A DNA stretch of 23,644 bases from a virus. Positions 1,579 through 20,347 of this stretch are shown in pieces (position 1 is the first letter of the stretch; each line of letters starts with the position of its first letter). Position numbers and translations under genes: made by a program. The notes beneath the pieces were generated by a model. The model was not told where the DNA came from. It did no database searches and was given only the letters and a program-made list of their open reading frames with translations. The DNA lies in the IMG/VR virus record IMGVR_UViG_3300028829_000731, positions 1-23,644 of that record. One strand, 5' to 3'.

Positions 1579-1902
1579 TTACGCCCCCAAATAGAATGTC
1601 TGGCACTGGTCGAGTTCGTATTGGTGTGCCATATGCTCTAAAATAGACCGCTCAAAAATAATATCCAATCTTTCATCTTCAACATTATTGGCCCAATCAC
1701 AAAGAATAAGCTTATTCAAGAGGTCCATTTCAATGAAATCATCATAGTTAGGTTCGGGTAGACGAGATACGAATCCACTTTTTACAGTGGTGCCCGGAAA
1801 CCGCGCATCTGTCCAATGATAATCCCACTCAATAAATTTAACTACGCCATCACTATCTGCTTTGAAGTTGTTAATAGTCATATAGTCTCTGTCTAATTTC
1901 AT
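1579..1902 (-). CDS. Unrecognised small protein overlapping the fibre gene
   Basis: A 107-residue acidic protein, rich in Asp, Glu and aromatic residues, with no signal peptide or membrane segment. Its ATG overlaps the stop of the long fibre gene by four bases (ATGA) and is preceded by a strong AAAGGAG Shine-Dalgarno, so the gene is certainly real. Small proteins encoded immediately after a fibre gene are often fibre-folding or attachment chaperones, and that is the best contextual guess. I recognise no family motif, and the S74 domain of the fibre upstream already supplies an intramolecular chaperone, so this protein may do something else. Confidence 0.6.
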   Translation of the reverse strand: MKLDRDYMTINNFKADSDGVVKFIEWDYHWTDARFPGTTVKSGFVSRLPEPNYDDFIEMDLLNKLILCDWANNVEDERLDIIFERSILEHMAHQYELDQCQTFYLGA

Positions 1903-4187
1903 GACACTTCTCCTTTAAGAGTTTTCACTTCTTTTCTTAGCTCTTTAACAGCCTCAATCAAAAGCCCAACCATATTACCATATGCTACACTTTTAATACC
2001 ATTCTCATCTGTGCTAACTACTTCAGGAAGAACTGCCTCTACGTCTTGTGCAATAACACCTGTTTTTCTAGCGTCACTGTCCATATCGTTTCTAACAAAA
2101 GTCACACCGTTAATTTGGTCTACTTTATCTAGAGCGTCTGTAATAGGCCGCACATCATCTTTCAAACTGCGATCTGAATAGGCAGTTACATCACCTGTTG
2201 CAGTAAAGTCACCTGCATCATCAAACGTAAATCTAGTTGTAGTGGCATCACGAATAATGAAGTTATTGATACCCGCGTTCAGGTCAAGATAAAAGTCTGT
2301 TCCATTTGTAAATAACTCAGCATCTTGAGCACTACCAAAAGCAACAATGCCGTTATCATCAAGCTGAATGCTGTTGCCGTTAGCATCAAGTGTTCCACCG
2401 AGTTGTGGGGTAGTGTCTTCAACAACATTACCTATGCCAGCTGCTGGAAGCCCAGTTAAACCACTACCATCACCAACGAAGCCTGTACTAGCCGTGATGG
2501 TCGTGCCATCAATTGTCGTACCAGTTATTGCAGCAGCAGATGCGCCACCAATAATAGCACCATCAATAGTGCCGCCGTTGATGTCTACAGTAGTTACAGC
2601 GCCACCGTTTGCTACGGTTGCACCTGTAAATGTAATTGTACCAGAAGCAGTAAGATTTGTAAAGGTTGCAGCAGCAGCGGATGCTCCACCGATTACTACA
2701 CCATCTGCTGTGCCACCATTAATGTCCGTAGTAGTTAGTACGGAGCTAGCTAGTGTGACAATGCCTGTAGTATTTGCGATACTACCTGCGGACGAGCCGT
2801 CTTTGGCTTTAAGAGTTGTGACTTCAATGTTAGTGGTGTCTACAGTTGTAGCATTAGCAGTTGTAAAAGTACCGGCAGCAGCGGATGCCCCACCGATCAC
2901 TACAGCATCAGCCGTGCCCCCGTTAATGTCAGCAGTAGTCAACACTGCGCTAGCAATAGTTACGACACCAGTTGTGTCTGCAATGCTGCCTGCGGATGTG
3001 CCGTCTTTGGCTTTGAGGGTCGTAACTTCAATGTTAGTGGTATCTACAGTAGTGGCGTTAGCTGTACTAAACGTACCAACTGCTGGAGTTGTTCCACCTA
3101 TAGTCACGGCATCTGCTGTTCCACCATTAATATCCGCAGTAGTCAACACAGCGCTAGCAATAGTTACAACACCAGTTGTGTCTGCGATGCTGCCTGCGGC
3201 TGTTCCGTCTTTGGCTTTGAGGGTCGTAACTTCAATGTTAGTGGTGTCTACAGTTGTAGCGTTAGCAGTAGTAAACGTGCCTACAGCAGCACTTGCCCCC
3301 CCAATAGTCGTACCATCAATAGTGCCACCATCAATGTCAATCGTAGTGACTGTACCACCGTCTGCAAAAGTAGCACCGTTAAAAGTGATCGTGCCTGTAG
3401 CGGTAAGATCAGTAACAGTAGCAGCAGCAGCACTAGCCCCACCAATAACTACACTATCTAAAGTGCCATCATTAATGTCCGTCTTGCTGATTACAACATT
3501 GCCCGTACCGTTTGGCGTGATGTTAATATCACCATTAACGTCTGTACTGATAATCGTGTTACCGTTAATGTTGAGATTATCAACAACAGCAGAGCCTGTA
3601 ACAGTAACCACACCTGTAAGAGCAGTAGCACCAGTAATAGTGATGTTAGCAGTGTCAATAGTTACAGCAGTGGCAGCATCAATATCTAGCGTAGTTGCAG
3701 TGAGAGTGAACAGTGCTGTATCTAGTGTGGCAGCGGTTGAAGCATCTAGATCAATAGTAGGAGCTGCAACTTGAACTTCAGTGTCACCAACAATGTCTAG
3801 CTGGCCATCTACACTTGAGTTAATATACAAGTCTGTGTCACGGAATTGAACTTTAGTAGTTGTAGCGAAAAGAGTGCTCTCACCGAAGCCGTCAATGTAA
3901 GCCAACCCGTCTAAATACATATCTTTAAACTGAACACCGCTAGTACCGATGTCTAGAGTGTTAGTGGTCTTACCTTTAATCTCAGTAGCTGATGCAATGA
4001 AGTCTTGAGCTGGCCCGAGCTGAGTTACGGGTGCCCCTTCAGACGTAGTGCCATCATGTGTGTGTCCAGTAGTAGCGTTAAAAGCCGCCTCAATAGCATC
4101 GTACTCGCCATCAAAGTCAGCCGCAGTTACAACATTACCGGAGGCTATGTTATTAGAAGTGTCGTTTCTGATGTAGCCCGTACCCAT
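1899..4187 (-). CDS. Long tail fibre with C-terminal S74 self-cleaving chaperone domain
   Basis: A 762-residue fibre. The N-terminus (about 1-100) contains HTHDG (42-46), common in phage fibre attachment regions. The middle (about 140-650) is a low-complexity Thr/Ala/Gly/Asp beta repeat region, including three 68-residue units. The C-terminal 93 residues (670-762) match the peptidase S74 intramolecular chaperone: YSDRSLKDD supplies Ser671 and Lys676, the S-D-x-x-x-K spacing of the family, followed by GVIAQDVEAVLPEVV and a terminal helix (LLIEAVKELRKEVKTL). In known members this domain drives trimerisation and then cuts itself off just before the Ser. The ATG has AAGG about 8 bases upstream. 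It directly follows the nozzle gene, consistent with a host-binding appendage. Confidence 0.88.
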   Translation of the reverse strand: MGTGYIRNDTSNNIASGNVVTAADFDGEYDAIEAAFNATTGHTHDGTTSEGAPVTQLGPAQDFIASATEIKGKTTNTLDIGTSGVQFKDMYLDGLAYIDGFGESTLFATTTKVQFRDTDLYINSSVDGQLDIVGDTEVQVAAPTIDLDASTAATLDTALFTLTATTLDIDAATAVTIDTANITITGATALTGVVTVTGSAVVDNLNINGNTIISTDVNGDINITPNGTGNVVISKTDINDGTLDSVVIGGASAAAATVTDLTATGTITFNGATFADGGTVTTIDIDGGTIDGTTIGGASAAVGTFTTANATTVDTTNIEVTTLKAKDGTAAGSIADTTGVVTIASAVLTTADINGGTADAVTIGGTTPAVGTFSTANATTVDTTNIEVTTLKAKDGTSAGSIADTTGVVTIASAVLTTADINGGTADAVVIGGASAAAGTFTTANATTVDTTNIEVTTLKAKDGSSAGSIANTTGIVTLASSVLTTTDINGGTADGVVIGGASAAAATFTNLTASGTITFTGATVANGGAVTTVDINGGTIDGAIIGGASAAAITGTTIDGTTITASTGFVGDGSGLTGLPAAGIGNVVEDTTPQLGGTLDANGNSIQLDDNGIVAFGSAQDAELFTNGTDFYLDLNAGINNFIIRDATTTRFTFDDAGDFTATGDVTAYSDRSLKDDVRPITDALDKVDQINGVTFVRNDMDSDARKTGVIAQDVEAVLPEVVSTDENGIKSVAYGNMVGLLIEAVKELRKEVKTLKGEVS
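2646..3257 (-). repeat. Three tandem 204-bp repeats inside the fibre gene
   Basis: Three 68-codon units occupy 3257-3054, 3053-2850 and 2849-2646. Each begins TTVDTTNIEVTTLKAKDG and ends near INGGTADxVxIGG. The shared string ccgtctttggcttt recurs at 2797, 3001 and 3205, exactly 204 bases apart. The units differ by point changes, mostly synonymous or conservative. Shorter related pieces (GGTIDGxxIGGASAAA) flank the array on both sides. Confidence 0.92.
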
Positions 4188-6942: not shown

Positions 6943-7289
6943 TATTTCTCTCTCACTGCTATTTTAACACTGCGTTCAGCTACGCTACCGGAGGTATCAG
7001 TTATAGAGCAGTAGAATATATACTCTGTACTAGCTACCCCACCACCGAGATTAATAGTAGCAACAGTGTCCGTGTTAGTCTGAGATACATTCTGAATGCT
7101 GTCAGTGACAGCGCTGCCCGAAGCAGTAGTCAAAGTCTCACCTGCCTCTAAGTCCACTTTAGCTTGATCCGGTGTCTTTACGTACCACGTAACTGCTGAG
7201 ATAGTAATACCAGAACCGAGAAAACGGGACCAGTCTATGCTGTAATCTAAAGTCTCATCGGGGTCTTTTACAGGCCAACGTAGTGCCAT
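6942..7289 (-). CDS. Small virion protein resembling fibre-tail adaptors
   Basis: A 115-residue protein that opens with LRWPVKDPDETLDYSIDWS. This WPxKDPxExLDYxIDW pattern is one I associate with small phage proteins annotated as fibre-tail adaptors, with an immunoglobulin-like beta fold in the remainder (ITISAVTWYV, then STEYIFYCSITDTSG). It begins at a TAATG junction with GGAAG about six bases upstream and ends at a TAATG junction with the adaptor gene. It would join a fibre or adhesin to the tail; candidate partners are the repeat protein upstream and the long fibre downstream. A generic minor structural protein is the alternative. Confidence 0.55.
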   Translation of the reverse strand: MALRWPVKDPDETLDYSIDWSRFLGSGITISAVTWYVKTPDQAKVDLEAGETLTTASGSAVTDSIQNVSQTNTDTVATINLGGGVASTEYIFYCSITDTSGSVAERSVKIAVREK

Positions 7290-8383
7290 TAGTTTCTTCC
7301 ACTTATTGCTGTACGATCATACTGAGTACTAGTACGCTTAATATATATTGTTCTATTCTCAAACGCTACATAGGCTGTACGCTCAAACTGTGTAGGCTCA
7401 CGTCTTACATAAACCACTCTGTTTTTGTCAAAGAGAGCTTTTACAGCCTCGAAGTCAAAGACTGTAGCTGTGGTATTTACTGTGCCTACAGTGCCAGTAG
7501 CTGTTACACCTGTTAGTGTATTGTTTGCTGCTCCTGTAGCCGCTAGAGTGCCTACAGCACCCGTTGCTGTTACATCTGCTAATGTGGTGTTTGCTGCACC
7601 TGTAGCAGTTATAGTGCCTGCTGCACCAGTTGCGGATACACCTGTTAGTGTGCTGTTTGCTACTATGTTAGCAATTATAGTGCCTACAGTGCCAGTAGCT
7701 GTTACACCTGTTAGTGTAATGTTTGCTGCTACTGTAGCCGCTAGAGTGCCTACAGCACCCGTTGCTGTTACACCTGCTAATGTGGTGTTTGCTGCACCTG
7801 TAGCAATTATAGTGCCTGCTGCACCAGTTGCTGTTACACCTGCTAATGTGGTGTTTGCTACTATGTTAGCAATTATAGTGCCTACAGTGCCAGTAGCTGT
7901 TACACCTGTTAGTGTATTGTTTGCTGCTCCTGTAGCTGCTAGAGTGCCTACAGCACCCGTTGCTGTTACACCTGCTAATGTGGTGTTTGCTGCACCTGTA
8001 GCAGTTATAGTGCCTGCTGCACCAGTTGCTGTTACACCTGCTAATGTGGTGTTTGCTGCACCTGTAGCAGTTATAGTGCCTGCTGCACCAGTTGCGGATA
8101 CACCTGTTAGTGTGCTGTTTGCTGATATGTTAGCAATTATAGTGCCTACAGCGCCTGTAGCTGTTACACCCGTTAGTGTATTGTTTGCCGCTCCTGTAGC
8201 AGTTATAGTGCCTACAGAGCCTGTAGCTGTTACACCTGTTAGTGTATTGTTTGCTGCTCCTGTAACCGCTAGAGTGCCTACAGCACCTGTAGCTGCAACA
8301 CCAGTTAAAGTTACTGATGATACACTTACACTTGCCCCAGCAGACGCTAGCGGCTCAGAGGCTAGAGGAGCAAAGCCTAACAC
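7289..8383 (-). CDS. Virion protein built of 22-residue tandem repeats
   Basis: A 364-residue protein with three parts. A short N-terminus (1-20, MLGFAPLASEPLASAG) resembles starts of other phage structural proteins. A repeat domain (21-306) has one degenerate and twelve full 22-residue units of the form AANxTLxGVTATGAVGTIxATG, with no Cys, aromatic or charged residues apart from a single Asp. A conserved-looking C-terminus (307-364) carries two parallel motifs, VVYVRREPTQFERTA and TIYIKRTSTQYDRTA. The repeats probably stack as a beta solenoid or Ig-like rod; the C-terminus may bind the virion. The start is GTG at 8383 just after the previous stop, without a clear Shine-Dalgarno, and no in-frame ATG precedes the repeats. 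Function beyond a probable surface or fibre component is unknown. Confidence 0.75.
   Translation of the reverse strand: MLGFAPLASEPLASAGASVSVSSVTLTGVAATGAVGTLAVTGAANNTLTGVTATGSVGTITATGAANNTLTGVTATGAVGTIIANISANSTLTGVSATGAAGTITATGAANTTLAGVTATGAAGTITATGAANTTLAGVTATGAVGTLAATGAANNTLTGVTATGTVGTIIANIVANTTLAGVTATGAAGTIIATGAANTTLAGVTATGAVGTLAATVAANITLTGVTATGTVGTIIANIVANSTLTGVSATGAAGTITATGAANTTLADVTATGAVGTLAATGAANNTLTGVTATGTVGTVNTTATVFDFEAVKALFDKNRVVYVRREPTQFERTAYVAFENRTIYIKRTSTQYDRTAISGRN
7466..8323 (-). repeat. Nested 66-bp and 198-bp tandem repeat array
   Basis: Twelve full 66-bp units (8257-7466) plus one degenerate unit (8323-8258) encode the 22-residue protein repeat. On top of this lies a 198-bp higher-order period: the string tgcctacagtgcc starts at 7483, 7681 and 7879, exactly 198 bases apart, so groups of three units (endings LAAT, IIANI, I-ATG) have been duplicated as blocks. 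Units within blocks are nearly identical at DNA level. Confidence 0.93.
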
Positions 8384-12913: not shown

Positions 12914-13978
12914 TTATACCAAATTAACTTTGGCGTTCACAAGAGCCTCTGGACGGAGAATCTTTGTGCCATACAGATGCATACCCCGAACGACATCGGC
13001 GAAACTGTCAGTATCGCGATACGATTCGGTTTTGTTGATCTGCTCAGCGGTAGCGATTGCCGAACTATGACCTGCAACAATTAGGCCGTAGTTACTAGCG
13101 TTCGTGCCGCCCGTTGTGGCTGGGCCCGTTCCAATAACCGGAAGGTTGTTAGAGCAGTACACCTTAAAGCCGTGAAGGTCACTTAGAATAAGACCGTTCT
13201 TAAGGGCGCTGTTAGCACCGGCGAAGTCGGAATTAAACAAGCGAGAGTCTTCGTCCTGAAGAATCTCTTTGCAGACTGGATCAAGAATAAGCCAACGAGC
13301 TTCCATCGGAACATTCTGCTGGTTGAGTAGACGCGCCATACGAGCAATTACTTGCAAGACATAGGCGTTACCAGAGCCCGGAACAGTAGACGTTGCACCC
13401 GGAGCACGAGCTTGAATGCCAATAGAGCTACCAGCTGAACCACCGAAGTCATCGGCTTCTAGTTTCATGCTCGAAAGCAATTCATCCGTGCCAGCAGTAC
13501 TAACTGCAACGGAGCCGTTAACAGTAGCATTAACAGTGTCACCAACAGTGTGATTAGCACTCTGCTTATAGCCACACATGTAAGCTAGAACGTCTTGATC
13601 GTAGTTGTCAGCAAGACGATAAGCTGCACGGTTACTGGCAAGAGAGCCAAAGTTTACGTGCGAATGAGCCTCTTCGATGTCATCAACTTTAAAGGCGAAG
13701 TAGTTCGACTTATTGATGGTCAAAGAGAAGTCTTCGTCGTCGAGGTCTTGAGCTTGAATGACCGAACCACGAGTGTAAGGTCTAACCGTGATTTCCGGTT
13801 CTTTGATGATTTTTACAGTGTCACCGAAGTTTGCGATTTCACCGAAATAGTCGGAGTTAGTAATATCCTGTGCAGTAGACTTCTTGCGGAAGGCAAGCTG
13901 CACCTGTTTGGAATAGATAGTAGCACTAAAATTCCCGTTAGGAAGATTACCGTACCCCGCCGCTGTTGAAAATGCCAT
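12914..13978 (-). CDS. Major capsid protein (HK97-fold type, inferred)
   Basis: A 354-residue protein with the features of an HK97-fold coat protein of short-tailed phages: an N-terminal arm (about 1-40, including SATIYSKQVQLAFRKKSTAQ); a beta-hinge/E-loop-like segment (GDTVKIIKEPEITVRPYTRG, then LTINKSNYFAFKVDDIEEAH); a long A-domain with MARLLNQQNVPMEARWLILD; and a C-terminal strand (SFADVVRGMHLYGTKILRPE). There is no N-terminal pro-domain, so maturation cleavage is not required. AAAGGA is 8 bases before the ATG. It follows the scaffold gene after a 260-base gap holding its own promoter and leader, and precedes a likely decoration gene. Confidence 0.85.
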   Translation of the reverse strand: MAFSTAAGYGNLPNGNFSATIYSKQVQLAFRKKSTAQDITNSDYFGEIANFGDTVKIIKEPEITVRPYTRGSVIQAQDLDDEDFSLTINKSNYFAFKVDDIEEAHSHVNFGSLASNRAAYRLADNYDQDVLAYMCGYKQSANHTVGDTVNATVNGSVAVSTAGTDELLSSMKLEADDFGGSAGSSIGIQARAPGATSTVPGSGNAYVLQVIARMARLLNQQNVPMEARWLILDPVCKEILQDEDSRLFNSDFAGANSALKNGLILSDLHGFKVYCSNNLPVIGTGPATTGGTNASNYGLIVAGHSSAIATAEQINKTESYRDTDSFADVVRGMHLYGTKILRPEALVNAKVNLV

Positions 13979-14238: not shown

Positions 14239-15126
14239 TTACTTCTTTTTGAGATCGTAGATGAAGCGACCTTCTTGAATAGCTAGAGTGATTTCATCTA
14301 CATTCTTCTCATACTCGTCCATAGACATTCTCTCTACATCAGACTCTCTAATAGAGTTAGTCTGGTCGCTTTGAGGGCTGTTACGAGCTGTTTTACTGTT
14401 TACAAAAGCTGCTGCATCATCTGCTGACTGCTTTCTTTTCTTATTCGGCTTATCAGAGATACCTTTATCAATCTTATACAGATCAATAGCTCTAGCTGCT
14501 GATCTAGCATCTTTATCATCTTCATAAAGAGCCTTCTGTACCCACGCAGGCTGTTCATCTGCCCACGTGTGGAAAGCATCATCATCTCTGATCTCTGCAA
14601 AGTCTGGATGGAGCTGCATAAGAATAGTCTCAGCCCTCTGCCTCTCTGTGTCTTCCTCTTTCTGAGTAATAGCCTCAAGTCTACTTTCTAGACTTGCAGA
14701 CTGTTCTTTAGCTTTAGTAAGGGCAATACTCTCTACAATAGCTGCAACTTCTGGATACTTAGCCATCCAGCTCTCGATGTCTGCATCCGACGCGGGTAGC
14801 TGAATACCCTCTTTAGTTACTGTATCCAGCTGAGCTTGCATGTCTGCTAGCTTCTGTGTATACTCTCGTTCTAATTTCTGTGAGTGTCTACGGAGGTCTC
14901 CGTATCTCTTCTTAAAAGTCTTCTCTTCAGCACCTTCAGGCTCTAGCTCTGCTGCACCCTCTACAACTGCATCGGGAGCATCATCATCCTCTTCTGCTTC
15001 AGCGTTACGTCCTGCCATAAGAGCAGCTAGCTCTTCTTCATCTCTCTGAATACGAGCTTGATTACTGTTAGGTTGACTAATAAAACCACGCTTCTCGGGT
15101 ACTACAACTTGATCTAGTTCAGGCAT
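14239..15126 (-). CDS. Capsid assembly scaffolding protein
   Basis: A 295-residue, highly charged and mostly helical protein. The N-terminal part has an acidic stretch (about 41-70, EAEEDDDAPDAVVEG). A coiled-coil-like centre follows (YGDLRRHSQKLEREYTQKLA near 75-94, and a Glu/Gln-rich stretch near 140-165), then a basic patch (NKKRKQ near 226-231) and a C-terminus ending DLKKK. Acidic ends, central coiled coil and a basic C-terminal region are typical of phage scaffolds that bind the coat protein inside the procapsid and leave before DNA entry. It sits directly upstream of the major capsid gene. The ribosome site (AAGAAG) is modest. Confidence 0.8.
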   Translation of the reverse strand: MPELDQVVVPEKRGFISQPNSNQARIQRDEEELAALMAGRNAEAEEDDDAPDAVVEGAAELEPEGAEEKTFKKRYGDLRRHSQKLEREYTQKLADMQAQLDTVTKEGIQLPASDADIESWMAKYPEVAAIVESIALTKAKEQSASLESRLEAITQKEEDTERQRAETILMQLHPDFAEIRDDDAFHTWADEQPAWVQKALYEDDKDARSAARAIDLYKIDKGISDKPNKKRKQSADDAAAFVNSKTARNSPQSDQTNSIRESDVERMSMDEYEKNVDEITLAIQEGRFIYDLKKK

Positions 15127-15209: not shown

Positions 15210-18059
15210 TTACCTTCGCGTTGCTAGTCCGCCTTTAGCATACTGTTTTTTCTTCTTCTTACGCTTCTTTACGAAGCCTCCGCGACCGAATGCATCGCCC
15301 GGTTGGCCATCGTCGCCTCCACCACCGCCTCCACCACCGCTTCCGCCGTCACCACCGTCAGCTCCACCACCGCCATCGTCACCCTCGCCCGGATCGCCCG
15401 CAGCGTCTGTGCCGCCACCAGAGCCTGTACCGGCACCATCACCCTGTCCAGCGGAATTGCCATCACCGCCATCGTTACTGCCGTCATTATCGCCACCAAT
15501 AGATTCTTGACCCGCGCCTAAACCCGCGCCTAAACCCGGATTGCCGGGGCCATTGTTCAACCCACCGCTGTATGTATCTGTTTCTGGATCAGTTGGATCT
15601 ACGTCAGGGTTTTCTGGATCAACTTCACCCATCTCCATACCGCTTATTGCAGTAGCAACTTCTGCGTTTATTGCAGCATTATTAATAGCCTGTGCAAGAC
15701 CTGCGGGTGGGGCAAGCGGAGTAAAGGGAAGTGTCGTAATTTCGTTATTTTTACGATCATAGTTATGACCAAACAGGCCCTTCGTTTGATGGCCCGGATT
15801 TTGGCCCACCATACCCAGTGTTTCATTGTGGTTATTTATATTGGGGTCTACCCCAGCTGCAGCAAATGCCGCACGTTGATTTAGAGCTTGTACTGTAGCA
15901 GCTGGTAGACCGTTTAATTGGTTAGTCATTGCAATGCCCATCAAACTGGCGCGAGCTGCATCTTTAGTAGCGACGTTATTTACTTGCGATAAATCCAGAC
16001 CCATAATACTTGCTAGACCTGAAGCTGCAGCTGCTGCTGCACCACCCCCCACACGTCCAGCCAGTCCAACTGGAGAGATAGTAGCAGATATCATTTCATC
16101 TACAGCAGAAAGAGCTGCTCTACCGAGTGCAGTATCGCCTAAAGCACCAAAAGAAGATAAAGATGCTGCATTAGCTATTGAGGGGTTAGCTGCCATTCCA
16201 GAAACAGACTGTCCGCTAGTCTGAGTGTCTCCTGCATCGGCGTTTCGCTCATCTGTTCTACTAGCTGCCCCAGTACCGTTAAGGCCTTTATTTATTGTTT
16301 CTAAGTAGCCCGTTAGAGCCTCCTGTTCGTCACTACTAGCCCTTTTATAGAACTCCTCTATAGGGGTTTGTAACTCCGGTTGATTACCAAACAGCTGTTT
16401 TACGAGATAGTTATAGTTCTTCAGACCTGTGTCACCTTCACCTAAGCCTCCTACTAAGTTTGCTTGAGAGAGGCCCGGATTATCTTTAAAGTAGCTTTGA
16501 AAGTCCTCACCGTCTACCTTTGTATTGTCAAAGTCTGGCGCTTCTGTGGGGTCCGGTGTTGGGGTGTTATCTGTATCAGTCTCATTTGTGTTGTTAAAAA
16601 TGTCTTTTAAGATATCATTATAATTACTAGCGTCTACATACAAGCCCTCTGCTGCCTCTACTGGCCCTTCTTCATCTACATCAAAGTCTTCTAGAGTGAA
16701 AGGCAAATCTTCCTCTTCTGATTCTCCGCCACTTTCACTGAATAGCTCATCAGGCCCAGATGCAGCATCCCCGTTGCCCATTTGGCCCATCTCCTCCATA
16801 CGAGCAAAACCTTTCTTAGCTTTGTCTCGGAGTTTCATGAAATACTCTACACCGAAGAACTTGACTACATCAGCTGGGATGACCATCTCGCCTTCACTTA
16901 ATCTAGCTGGAATGTCATCCCTTACTTCTTCTGGCTTACTGCCAATAGGCACTTCGTTGCCTGATACAGGATCAACTTTCGGTGCTTCTTGCATCATGCT
17001 GCTCATTTCGTCATTCATGTTTGTATTCATTCCGCCCTCTGCAAATCCTTTAGAACCTTTTTCTAAGGTGGCAGCTCTTAACTCTGTTAAGCGTTCTTGT
17101 GCTAGACCCTCTACCACATCAGCGCTCTGTACAAGTTGATCTAGAAAACCTTTAATGTACTCGTCGCCTTTCATAGTCTTAGACTTCCAGCTCTCAGCCC
17201 TCCAGCCGTTAAAGGCGTTTATAGCTTGCAATTCTCCCGCCGTTATTTTATTACTTTTTAATGTCTCACGCCTGTCTTTTATAAAGACCCTTACATGATC
17301 CTCATTAACCGTAGACGGATTTGCAATGTAGTCTGTAACTGGAGAAGTATGGGCCATTACATTTTGTTTATTTTTTATACTGTCTCTTTGCAGGATACTA
17401 TTAAGAATTACATGCTCTACTGCTACCGAAAAGTTCGGGGCAACTCTTTCAGCGAGAATGTCCAGAGCTACGTTACCCTCCCGTGCGGGTATTCCGCCCT
17501 CTCGTATTTTGGAAAATGCATGATGCATAGACTCATGAACTAGTGTGTTTACTCTACCATCGCGCCACTTACCTTCATCTGTAAGCTTTTGTCTTGCTTT
17601 TTTTCTCGTTACGCCTTCGGCGTTGGTGCCTTCATCGTTGGTATTCATAGTGACAACGCCGCTGTCAGGTGTGTACCACCCCTTCGTTTCACCGTGATTA
17701 CGGTGATCTACCGCTGCAGCACTAAGTACGTCTATGCCTCTTCCTGTCTTTAAGAGGAAGTTGTTATTTCTATCTGTATCGGTTGCTTCATAGTGTTCTA
17801 TGCGTTTATTTAATTCACCTGTATCTGTTTCATTACTCAAGTCCTCCATACCAAAAGCAGACAGAGTGTTTTCCCTCTCTTCCGCGTCCAGCATAAGCTC
17901 ATTGTCAGCTAGACCTAAAGCAGCCTCTGTTTGGTAGGGGTCTTTAGCTAGAGCGGCCCTTATTTCTTCTTTAGTGGGGGACGACACGCGTTGCCAGCCA
18001 GCAGTAGTACGGTCTTCTGGACGAGTCTTAGGTATGGGGGCGCGTTTACTCTCAGGCAT
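15210..18059 (-). CDS. 949-residue virion-associated protein with HExxH metalloprotease-like motif and Gly-rich tail
   Basis: A large multi-part protein of unknown function. Residues about 85-215 form a zincin-like region: VNTLVHESMHHAF (170-182) has the HExxH zinc-protease motif at 175-179 with hydrophobic residues before it, and Glu205 is a possible third ligand. Residues about 338-430 hold a separate module (FAEGG, DPVSGNEVPIGS, SEGEMVIPADVV at 388-399, RMEEMGQMGN) that I recognise as recurring in marine phage proteins with no known role. Then come an acidic region, an Ala/Gly-rich helical region (about 640-760), a Gly/Asp low-complexity stretch (about 810-925) and a Lys-rich end (KKRKKKKK, then YAKGGLATRR). 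The start overlaps the preceding stop by 8 bases. Lying between portal and scaffold, it may be a prohead protease or an internal virion protein. Confidence 0.62.
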   Translation of the reverse strand: MPESKRAPIPKTRPEDRTTAGWQRVSSPTKEEIRAALAKDPYQTEAALGLADNELMLDAEERENTLSAFGMEDLSNETDTGELNKRIEHYEATDTDRNNNFLLKTGRGIDVLSAAAVDHRNHGETKGWYTPDSGVVTMNTNDEGTNAEGVTRKKARQKLTDEGKWRDGRVNTLVHESMHHAFSKIREGGIPAREGNVALDILAERVAPNFSVAVEHVILNSILQRDSIKNKQNVMAHTSPVTDYIANPSTVNEDHVRVFIKDRRETLKSNKITAGELQAINAFNGWRAESWKSKTMKGDEYIKGFLDQLVQSADVVEGLAQERLTELRAATLEKGSKGFAEGGMNTNMNDEMSSMMQEAPKVDPVSGNEVPIGSKPEEVRDDIPARLSEGEMVIPADVVKFFGVEYFMKLRDKAKKGFARMEEMGQMGNGDAASGPDELFSESGGESEEEDLPFTLEDFDVDEEGPVEAAEGLYVDASNYNDILKDIFNNTNETDTDNTPTPDPTEAPDFDNTKVDGEDFQSYFKDNPGLSQANLVGGLGEGDTGLKNYNYLVKQLFGNQPELQTPIEEFYKRASSDEQEALTGYLETINKGLNGTGAASRTDERNADAGDTQTSGQSVSGMAANPSIANAASLSSFGALGDTALGRAALSAVDEMISATISPVGLAGRVGGGAAAAAASGLASIMGLDLSQVNNVATKDAARASLMGIAMTNQLNGLPAATVQALNQRAAFAAAGVDPNINNHNETLGMVGQNPGHQTKGLFGHNYDRKNNEITTLPFTPLAPPAGLAQAINNAAINAEVATAISGMEMGEVDPENPDVDPTDPETDTYSGGLNNGPGNPGLGAGLGAGQESIGGDNDGSNDGGDGNSAGQGDGAGTGSGGGTDAAGDPGEGDDGGGGADGGDGGSGGGGGGGGDDGQPGDAFGRGGFVKKRKKKKKQYAKGGLATRR

Positions 18060-18285
18060 TCTTTATCAATTCTAATCTTTTAAGGTCTGCTAAGGCTTTA
18101 ATGTAGCCCTGAGCATGAGCTACACGTTCCATTGTAGCTGCAGTCTCAAGTGTTCTGTGTTGTGAGTCGGTCATGCATTCAACATACTCTACAAAAGCTG
18201 CCCACAAGTTAGGGTTACTGTATAGAGGGCGGAGGCGCTGCTGCACCTCCTGATGGCTGGGCTTGTTGCTGTTGTGGTTGGGCAT
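18052..18285 (-). CDS. Small helical protein overlapping the portal gene end
   Basis: A 77-residue protein if started at the ATG at 18285, which has AAGGA 10 bases upstream; an in-frame ATG at 18315 with a more distant AGGAG would give 87 residues. It overlaps the portal gene end by 71 bases and its TGA overlaps the next start by 8 bases. The sequence is helical (LWAAFVEYVECMTDSQHRTL, then a stretch ending AQGYIKALADLKRLEL). The pattern of helix, histidine-rich turn and a Gln-Gly-x-I-x-A-L helix recalls small proteins next to portal genes in other phages. Role unknown; it may assist portal or internal-protein assembly. Confidence 0.6.
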   Translation of the reverse strand: MPNHNSNKPSHQEVQQRLRPLYSNPNLWAAFVEYVECMTDSQHRTLETAATMERVAHAQGYIKALADLKRLELIKNA

Positions 18286-20347
18286 TGCCTGAGAATCCTT
18301 CTTGACCCGGAACATTAGGTGGGCCTGCTCCTATAGTACCGCCACCACCTGCGGTTGGTACTTGTGGGTTAGTGCCTGCTGGCGTTTGGTTTGGCTGAGG
18401 CTGCTGTTGAGCTTGTTCAGCCTGCATACCTTTGAGAATCTCAGCTTGAAGCAGAGCGTCGTCCATAGAGTTGACAACTTTGTCTGGATCAAGATCAAGA
18501 GACTTAGCAAGCTCAGCCAGAATGTGATTGAACTTAGCGAAAGGTGCAAGTACTTGATTACTAGCAATACCGAGAAACTGCATTAGTCTCTGACTTCTAA
18601 CTTCGTTAGCCATCAAGCTCTCAGTGCCTCTAGCTCTTACCTCTAGATCACCTTTGATATCTTTGTCATTATCAAACTGCATGTTGAAGTGGAACAAGCC
18701 GTCGCCTACTGGCTTAAGCAAGTAATCATCAACATTCTTGATAACACTCTTAACTGTAATACTAGCTGCACCCATAAGCATACTGATACCGCTAGCAGTT
18801 CTACCTACGCCCGAGACTCCAGTCTGCCCGTGAGCGAACGAAGGCATACCAGTGCTCTCATCTGCGAGCTGTCTAGCTTTATCAAACATCTGCAAGTTTT
18901 CTTGTGAGACGTTAGGGAACTTAGTTCCAAAGATAGACTGGCCCGGAGCACCGCCCTGACGCCGGAATACTTTGCCCGGATATACAGTCAAGTCCTGCCC
19001 CGGCACAAGATTAGTTTCATCCACTTCAATAAGCAGATTACCAGACAGAGCCCCGTTATCAACTGCCATACGCATAAAGCCATTCATAAGGGTCTGCGTG
19101 TCTTCCATATTTTCCCCTACACCAACACCAAAGAAGCTGTAAGGATTAAGCTCATACGGGGCTGCAGCGTAAGGAATACGCATTGGCTTAAAGGGGTTTA
19201 GCACAAGTCTGATGATTTCGTTATTAACTACCCAAATATTGGCTTGAACTTCATCAAAGTCCTCAAAACCTTCGGGGATATCAATGTCATAAGACTCTAG
19301 AAGCTCTGTATCTACATTACCCCAATACTCAAGCACCTCAAAGCGCTCAATCTGTTGTTGCTGGTCGTAGTCAGCTAGATCGTCTTCCCAATGCTCTCTA
19401 ACATAGGCTTCACCATATGAAATAACGTCATCAATAGCTGAATTACGGAACATTGGGCGCTTTTTGAGTGCTCTAAGCTGAGAGCGACTCATTTTATGCC
19501 TTTCAATGACGTATTCAGCCTCTTCAATGTTGTTAGCGTCGGGGTCTGGATAGAAATTCCACACACTTACATGTGAAATCTGCGGTACAGTCTTGATTGT
19601 GGGGTCATACTCACCGTCTTCTGACCACTTAGGGTACTCTTTATTAATAGCAAAGGGGCCCTTAAGCACACCAGTGCCGAATAGAGACATTTCAAAGGCT
19701 GTACTACGCAGATGCTTAGAAGCGTGACTCTCTTCTAGCTGATCAATGATCTTCTTCTGCATCTTCTTAGCTGATTCAAGTGCAGGATAGAAAGTAGGCG
19801 ATGCAGCTGTTGCGCCTTCGCCCTCTTTTAGGCCTTTAGCTTTAGACAACTTCTCTTCAAGCATACCGAGCTTTAGAGATTTACCAGTAGCTCCTGCAGG
19901 TGGGTCTTTACCGTCGCCCGGAAAGCCATAAGGGGAAGCAGTGTCCTCTTCCGGTGCAGATTCTCTAGAGTCAGGCGGCATACCAACATCAAAATGAACA
20001 GACTCTGAAACGCCTTCTGGCAACACGGTAGGCTCAATAGTAATTGGGAACCTGCCGTTACCGAACAACACCTCTACAATCTGTGCGTAAGCTGCAATGA
20101 CTTTAGTCTTAGTAATCTTAATAAAGACTTTGCTCTTCTCATTATCTGAGAAGACAGCATCTGGTCCGTACACACCTCTGTAGTTGCGATAAGCTTGTAG
20201 CCAGCGGTCTTCATCTGTACGTCTGTAAGTCTTAGCTTTGTAGTACTGCCCTGTGACATAGTTTACAAGCGGGGAATACTCGACTGCTTCACTTTCGTCA
20301 TCCTCTAAGCCTACAGCTTGAGCTTCAAAAATAGAGTCTTCTGACAT
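18215..20347 (-). CDS. Portal protein (head-tail connector)
   Basis: A 710-residue protein of the size of podovirus portals, which form the dodecameric ring at one capsid vertex through which DNA passes. The N-terminus (VNYVTGQYYKAKTYRRTDED, then WLQAYRNYRGVYG) and the wing/clip-like middle (a stretch with VSVWNFYPDPDANNIEEAEY and ERHKMSRSQLRALK; then NPYSFFGVGVGENMEDTQTL) match large portals of this kind. The C-terminal 70 or so residues are Gln/Pro/Gly/Ala-rich and probably disordered. AAGGA lies about 10 bases before the ATG. It follows the large terminase gene by 14 bases, the usual order. The end of the gene overlaps the small gene downstream. Confidence 0.87.
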   Translation of the reverse strand: MSEDSIFEAQAVGLEDDESEAVEYSPLVNYVTGQYYKAKTYRRTDEDRWLQAYRNYRGVYGPDAVFSDNEKSKVFIKITKTKVIAAYAQIVEVLFGNGRFPITIEPTVLPEGVSESVHFDVGMPPDSRESAPEEDTASPYGFPGDGKDPPAGATGKSLKLGMLEEKLSKAKGLKEGEGATAASPTFYPALESAKKMQKKIIDQLEESHASKHLRSTAFEMSLFGTGVLKGPFAINKEYPKWSEDGEYDPTIKTVPQISHVSVWNFYPDPDANNIEEAEYVIERHKMSRSQLRALKKRPMFRNSAIDDVISYGEAYVREHWEDDLADYDQQQQIERFEVLEYWGNVDTELLESYDIDIPEGFEDFDEVQANIWVVNNEIIRLVLNPFKPMRIPYAAAPYELNPYSFFGVGVGENMEDTQTLMNGFMRMAVDNGALSGNLLIEVDETNLVPGQDLTVYPGKVFRRQGGAPGQSIFGTKFPNVSQENLQMFDKARQLADESTGMPSFAHGQTGVSGVGRTASGISMLMGAASITVKSVIKNVDDYLLKPVGDGLFHFNMQFDNDKDIKGDLEVRARGTESLMANEVRSQRLMQFLGIASNQVLAPFAKFNHILAELAKSLDLDPDKVVNSMDDALLQAEILKGMQAEQAQQQPQPNQTPAGTNPQVPTAGGGGTIGAGPPNVPGQEGFSGNAQPQQQQAQPSGGAAAPPPSIQ

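Follow-up and report, generated by a model that had tools for sequence, protein, structure and literature searches.

The 949-aa protein encoded beside the DNA-packaging genes of this marine virus of bacteria is probably a polyvalent-protein-like carrier that travels in the virion and bears an exchangeable payload at its N terminus, in this phage a zincin-like metallopeptidase that would enter the host. The window (the whole 23,644 nt of DNA analysed, a 23.6-kb virus record holding a structural module of the HMO-2011 podovirus type) contains the gene at 15210..18059 on the minus strand, as are all window features given below, with its ATG at 18059 and its stop at 15210-15212. The gene consists of a constant core and two exchangeable cassettes. 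It is preceded by the portal gene (18215..20347; SU10_portal, E=2.8e-29; phrog_332/1216) and a small overlapping ORF of 87 aa (18052..18315), and it is followed, after only 83 bp, by a scaffold-position gene (14239..15126; assigned by phrog_13678 and position) and then by the gene for the major capsid protein (MCP; 12914..13978), which is related to T7-like capsids. These coordinates and neighbours bear out the initial annotation, which placed the gene between portal and scaffold and saw no head protease: among the window proteins scanned, the only protease-like family found is the Peptidase_S74 domain of the tail fibre.

That domain (E=4.7e-16) is the self-cleaving chaperone at the C terminus of a tail-fibre-like protein of 762 aa (1899-4187), which also has long internal repeats with a 204-bp period. 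A second repeat protein (7289-8383) is made up of about 12 copies of a 22-aa repeat, has no Pfam match, and shows a 66-bp period with a 198-bp higher-order unit and an open antisense ORF along the same stretch. A GNAT-type acetyltransferase (452-1063; E=2.9e-4) adjoins the tail genes.

The order of portal, 949-aa gene, scaffold, and capsid is conserved in HMO-2011-type marine podoviruses. With tblastn, the core of the 949-aa protein was matched in Puniceispirillum phage HMO-2011 and in Roseobacter CRP phages, where the proteins are annotated as hypothetical; the HMO-2011 homologue, phage1322_49, occupies the same portal-scaffold slot and has the same core motif. Scans with three core seeds yielded 254 proteins, of which 203 are unique and 199 have a complete start; all 254, having been gathered by the core motif itself, contain KPEEVRDDIPARLSEGEMVIPADVVKFFG...MEEMGQMG (16776..16937; aa 375-428). 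Of the 141 loci in which an upstream gene could fit, 132 have the portal gene directly before the homologue, and 154 of 179 have a scaffold homologue after it. The window protein ends in a basic tail, RGGFVKKRKKKKKQYAKGGLATRR (15213..15284; aa 926-949), and among the 179 homologues whose 3' end is complete, 124 have a lysine/arginine-rich tail. The constant part (aa 337-552 plus this basic tail) would place the protein in the virion near the portal.

What precedes the core is variable. In the 199 homologues with a complete start, the constant core RDDIPARLSEGEMVIPADVV follows 26 to 1151 aa of exchangeable sequence, which is shorter than 60 aa in 94 proteins (including that of HMO-2011, which has no N-terminal domain) and at least 110 aa in 100. 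Cassettes did not match in 549 of the 609 locus pairs in which portal DNA was at least 80% identical and at least one member had a cassette of at least 60 aa, some of these pairs, which are not independent of one another, having >97% portal identity.

The boundaries of both exchangeable segments are visible in a comparison with a close relative, L004. The portal gene and the small ORF are about 96% identical at the DNA level; identity falls to about 42% from position 18051, three codons inside the 949-aa gene, is regained at 17051 (97%), is lost again over 16401-15383, and stands at 95-100% across the C-terminal tail and the scaffold and capsid genes. The N-terminal cassette (17052..18050; aa 4-336) ends sharply at KGFAEGG, and the second exchangeable region (15383..16401; aa about 553-892) is a DNA mosaic. 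The N-terminal domain, zincin-like in the window, is DUF6973-like in L004 and L008, by a weak match (E=1.5e-4) below Pfam's cut-off. Because another relative, L002, combines the window's N-terminal cassette with an L004-type second region, the two segments assort independently. The cassettes of the window and L002 differ at 9 of 999 bases (0.9%), compared with 79 of 2133 in the portal gene (3.7%; cassette versus portal, Fisher P = 2e-6) and 82 of 1578 in TerL (5.2%), and this lower divergence suggests a recent transfer of the cassette.

This exchange bears on the proposal that the protein is a metalloprotease acting in head maturation, which the initial annotation offered and with which the position of the gene between portal and capsid genes agrees. 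The zincin is not retained with the capsid and scaffold: phages carrying the unrelated N-terminal domain have an MCP 99.4% identical, a scaffold 98% identical, and a portal 98% identical to those of the window. Moreover, no N-terminal domain is present in HMO-2011 or in about half of the homologues, and the capsid is of the T7-like type, whose assembly involves no maturation protease. Given the swap beside a nearly identical MCP, the homologues that do without the domain, and the capsid type, a role in head maturation is very improbable. The initial annotation had also held that loss of the motif in close homologues would count against a zincin; the domain as a whole is indeed swapped out in near-identical phages, but where the domain remains, so does the motif.

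The contents of the slot in other phages point toward a delivered protein. Pfam domains in the other cassettes include LPD23 (7 of 50), DUF6782 metallopeptidase (3), Hydrolase_2 (2), LysM (2), Phage_lysozyme2 (1), and ART-PolyVal (1, E=1.2e-4), as well as a methyltransferase and DUF7178, and PHROG matches extend to endolysin, transglycosylase, and tail-lysozyme families. A diverged homologue, L011, has a weak MPTase-PolyVal match (E=0.03). Since relatives have cell-wall hydrolases and polyvalent-protein domains as interchangeable contents of this slot, an injected protein with a host target, another option in the initial annotation, fits much better than head maturation.

Multiple activities are joined in the homologue of a cultured phage, Roseobacter phage CRP-3 (L095, 593-4468), in which Hydrolase_2, methyltransferase, and DUF7178 are fused before the core, making it a multi-activity version of the 949-aa protein. 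In CRP-13 and CRP-345 (L092 and L093), a methyltransferase gene stands directly after the homologue, where the window phage has its 83 bp.

The zincin-like core of the window's cassette (17370..17693; aa about 123-230) contains VNTLVHESMHHAF (residues 170-182), and the 949-aa translation confirms H175 and E176 at the positions given in the initial annotation, and H179 likewise; HESMH (17523..17537; aa 175-179) would supply zinc ligands and the catalytic glutamate. A five-residue HExxH pattern alone is weak evidence, and at least one HExxH arises in 2% of shuffles of the window's N-terminal part. Here the pattern stands in a wider context that includes a G-x-Y-x-P strand motif upstream, followed by T-L-h-HExxH. 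The predicted strand motif, GWYTPDSGVVTMN (17643..17681; aa 127-139), is common to L011 and to a group of cassettes with HEIQH.

That the HExxH arose by chance in a helical spacer and does not serve catalysis would accord with the shuffle frequency and with the lack of a significant family or fold match, and it is nonetheless quite unlikely in view of the homologues. L011 occupies the same slot in a phage whose MCP is 82% and portal 73% identical to those of the window; its zincin region is only about 24% identical, and the motif is kept as VHEIGHKA, again preceded by the Y-x-P strand motif (YHPRNDRIEL, then ETFVHEIGHKA). Across the slot homologues, HExxH occurs in 20 of the 101 N-terminal parts of at least 80 aa drawn from the 203 unique proteins, against 0.28 expected from shuffles (maximum of 3 in 500 shuffles), and in none of the 203 C-terminal parts (96,114 aa). 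These 20 include several close relatives and are not a count of independent events; they represent at least four sequence types (the window, L011, L074, and an HE(I/V/T)QH group). In addition, hhalign aligned the strand and HExxH helix of the window/L011 profile with those of the separate HE(I/V)QH group (P = 1.2e-4, probability 55%). Conservation in L011, enrichment in N-terminal parts, and this profile match raise the HExxH above chance, and the claim that it sits in a zincin-like context stands: sequence context and homologues together make a zincin-like domain well supported.

The fold, unproven by structure, receives suggestive pointers only from modelling. AlphaFold reached a pLDDT of 37 with a three-sequence alignment and of 54 (pTM 0.56) with a 15-row alignment to which HEIQH-group rows had been added; the latter was assembled around HExxH, so its model is not independent evidence. 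In Foldseek searches of PDB and BFVD, no match passed E 0.001, and the weak matches were recurrently zincins (collagenase G, lethal factor, selecase, SprT and IrrE types, and polyvalent proteins). The low-confidence three-sequence model starts a helix at residue 215, and E215 (17415..17417) is a candidate third zinc ligand on this following helix, from an alignment in which L011 has EHV at window E215-H216-V217.

The window protein is matched neither by Pfam at E≤1 nor by any PHROG below E 0.18. Searching PDB sequences with a profile returned chance matches only, tblastn of the N-terminal cassette against phages and plasmids found no match, genome-contig scans turned up no relative, and seeds A2 and L011 recovered no further zincin cassette types from viral contigs. 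The zincin-like domain is the only candidate enzymatic domain found in the 949-aa protein.

If the domain acts as its context predicts, H175 and H179 would be zinc ligands, probably together with E215, and water would be activated by E176. We infer that the N-terminal cassette, as a swappable payload, enters the host with the DNA, where the zincin would most likely cut a host protein early in infection, or free itself from its carrier. An entry enzyme, opening the cell envelope during DNA injection by cutting peptidoglycan peptides or a periplasmic protein, would match the Hydrolase_2, Phage_lysozyme2, and LysM domains and the endolysin and transglycosylase PHROGs of other cassettes in the slot. 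HExxH zincins normally cleave proteins, however, and different motifs characterise the known metallopeptidases of peptidoglycan (M23, LAS/M15); the Pfam scan of the 949-aa protein also detected no cell-wall-binding domain. Such a role is unlikely, and because HExxH zincins normally cut proteins, the peptidoglycan target that the initial annotation named beside a host one is possible but the less likely of the two.

Autoprocessing, in which the zincin would cut its own polypeptide before or after packaging and so separate carrier and payload, is fairly unlikely, though less so than an entry enzyme. It has been proposed for polyvalent MPTases by Iyer et al., who cite the processing of phage P1 DdrB (PMC5512222), and the sharp cassette end at KGFAEGG would make a plausible linker. 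Against it, the zincin is the sole recognised enzyme, so that nothing else would be freed, and the same core is kept in homologues without any zincin; in addition, the N4 virion RNA polymerase with its MPTase is packaged uncut, according to the same paper.

The preferred reading, a delivered payload acting on a host protein, leads to a broader and more tentative one, whose chances we put somewhat below even: in HMO-2011-type phages the constant carrier and its N-terminal slot, which would be a recombination hotspot, may form a dedicated delivery protein and a polymorphic effector system of polarity reversed to that of MuF toxins, which would bring proteases, cell-wall enzymes, and conflict domains into action early in infection. 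Should the constant part serve for delivery, the cassettes would amount to a catalogue of entry enzymes and early-infection effectors that can be tested in cultured Roseobacter phages, and the slot would mark a place of fast diversification inside an otherwise conserved structural module.

The arrangement resembles that of the MuF polymorphic toxins (Jamet et al. 2017, PMC5576092) in that the gene lies downstream of the portal gene, with one small overlapping ORF between them, and joins a constant part to a variable effector part. The main variable part of the window protein is N-terminal, whereas that of MuF toxins is C-terminal, and no small immunity-like ORF follows the window gene. MuF toxins are those of temperate phages, whereas many HMO-2011-type subgroups are without lysogeny genes (PMC9038755). 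The MuF domain PF04233 is absent from the record, and the 949-aa protein has no Pfam match to it. With no MuF domain, reversed polarity, and no immunity ORF, assignment as a MuF polymorphic toxin was rejected. The upstream 87-aa ORF was likewise rejected as a cassette-matched immunity gene, being identical in phages with a different cassette; with only the short gap before the scaffold gene on the other side, no cassette-specific immunity gene was found.

Among HMO-2011-type phages, HMO-2011 differs from the window phage in having no N-terminal cassette and the CRP phages in having other cassettes; term searches of three papers on such phages (PMC6918029, PMC8528129, and PMC9038755) showed no discussion of the portal-scaffold gene. 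The closer comparison is with phage polyvalent proteins, in which, according to the parts of Iyer et al. (2017, PMC5512222) on these proteins, zincin-like MPTases are the commonest domain. Those parts describe polyvalent proteins as encoded with portal-terminase modules and likely packaged, and propose that after delivery the MPTases process their carrier or attack proteins of the host. Like them, the window gene encodes a large late-module protein beside portal and terminase, adjoined by the packaging module and late structural genes; its HExxH is followed by a predicted helix with a candidate glutamate, and its slot homologues carry LPD23, ART-PolyVal, and cell-wall hydrolase domains. Unlike them, the window zincin matches no MPTase-PolyVal model and is the one recognised candidate enzyme, and those parts of PMC5512222 describe no defined phage group in which a constant core carries an interchangeable payload at its N terminus; HMO-2011 is not mentioned in that paper. 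Pfam (E≤1) found no MPTase-PolyVal, LPD, or ART-PolyVal domain in the 949-aa protein itself, and the slot homologues do match (L011 weakly), so that membership in the polyvalent family rests on relatives. By analogy, then, the 949-aa protein would function as phage polyvalent proteins do, although no model of that family matches it; its domains are the zincin-like cassette and the core, and clear multi-activity is found in homologues such as that of CRP-3, with its Hydrolase_2 and methyltransferase.
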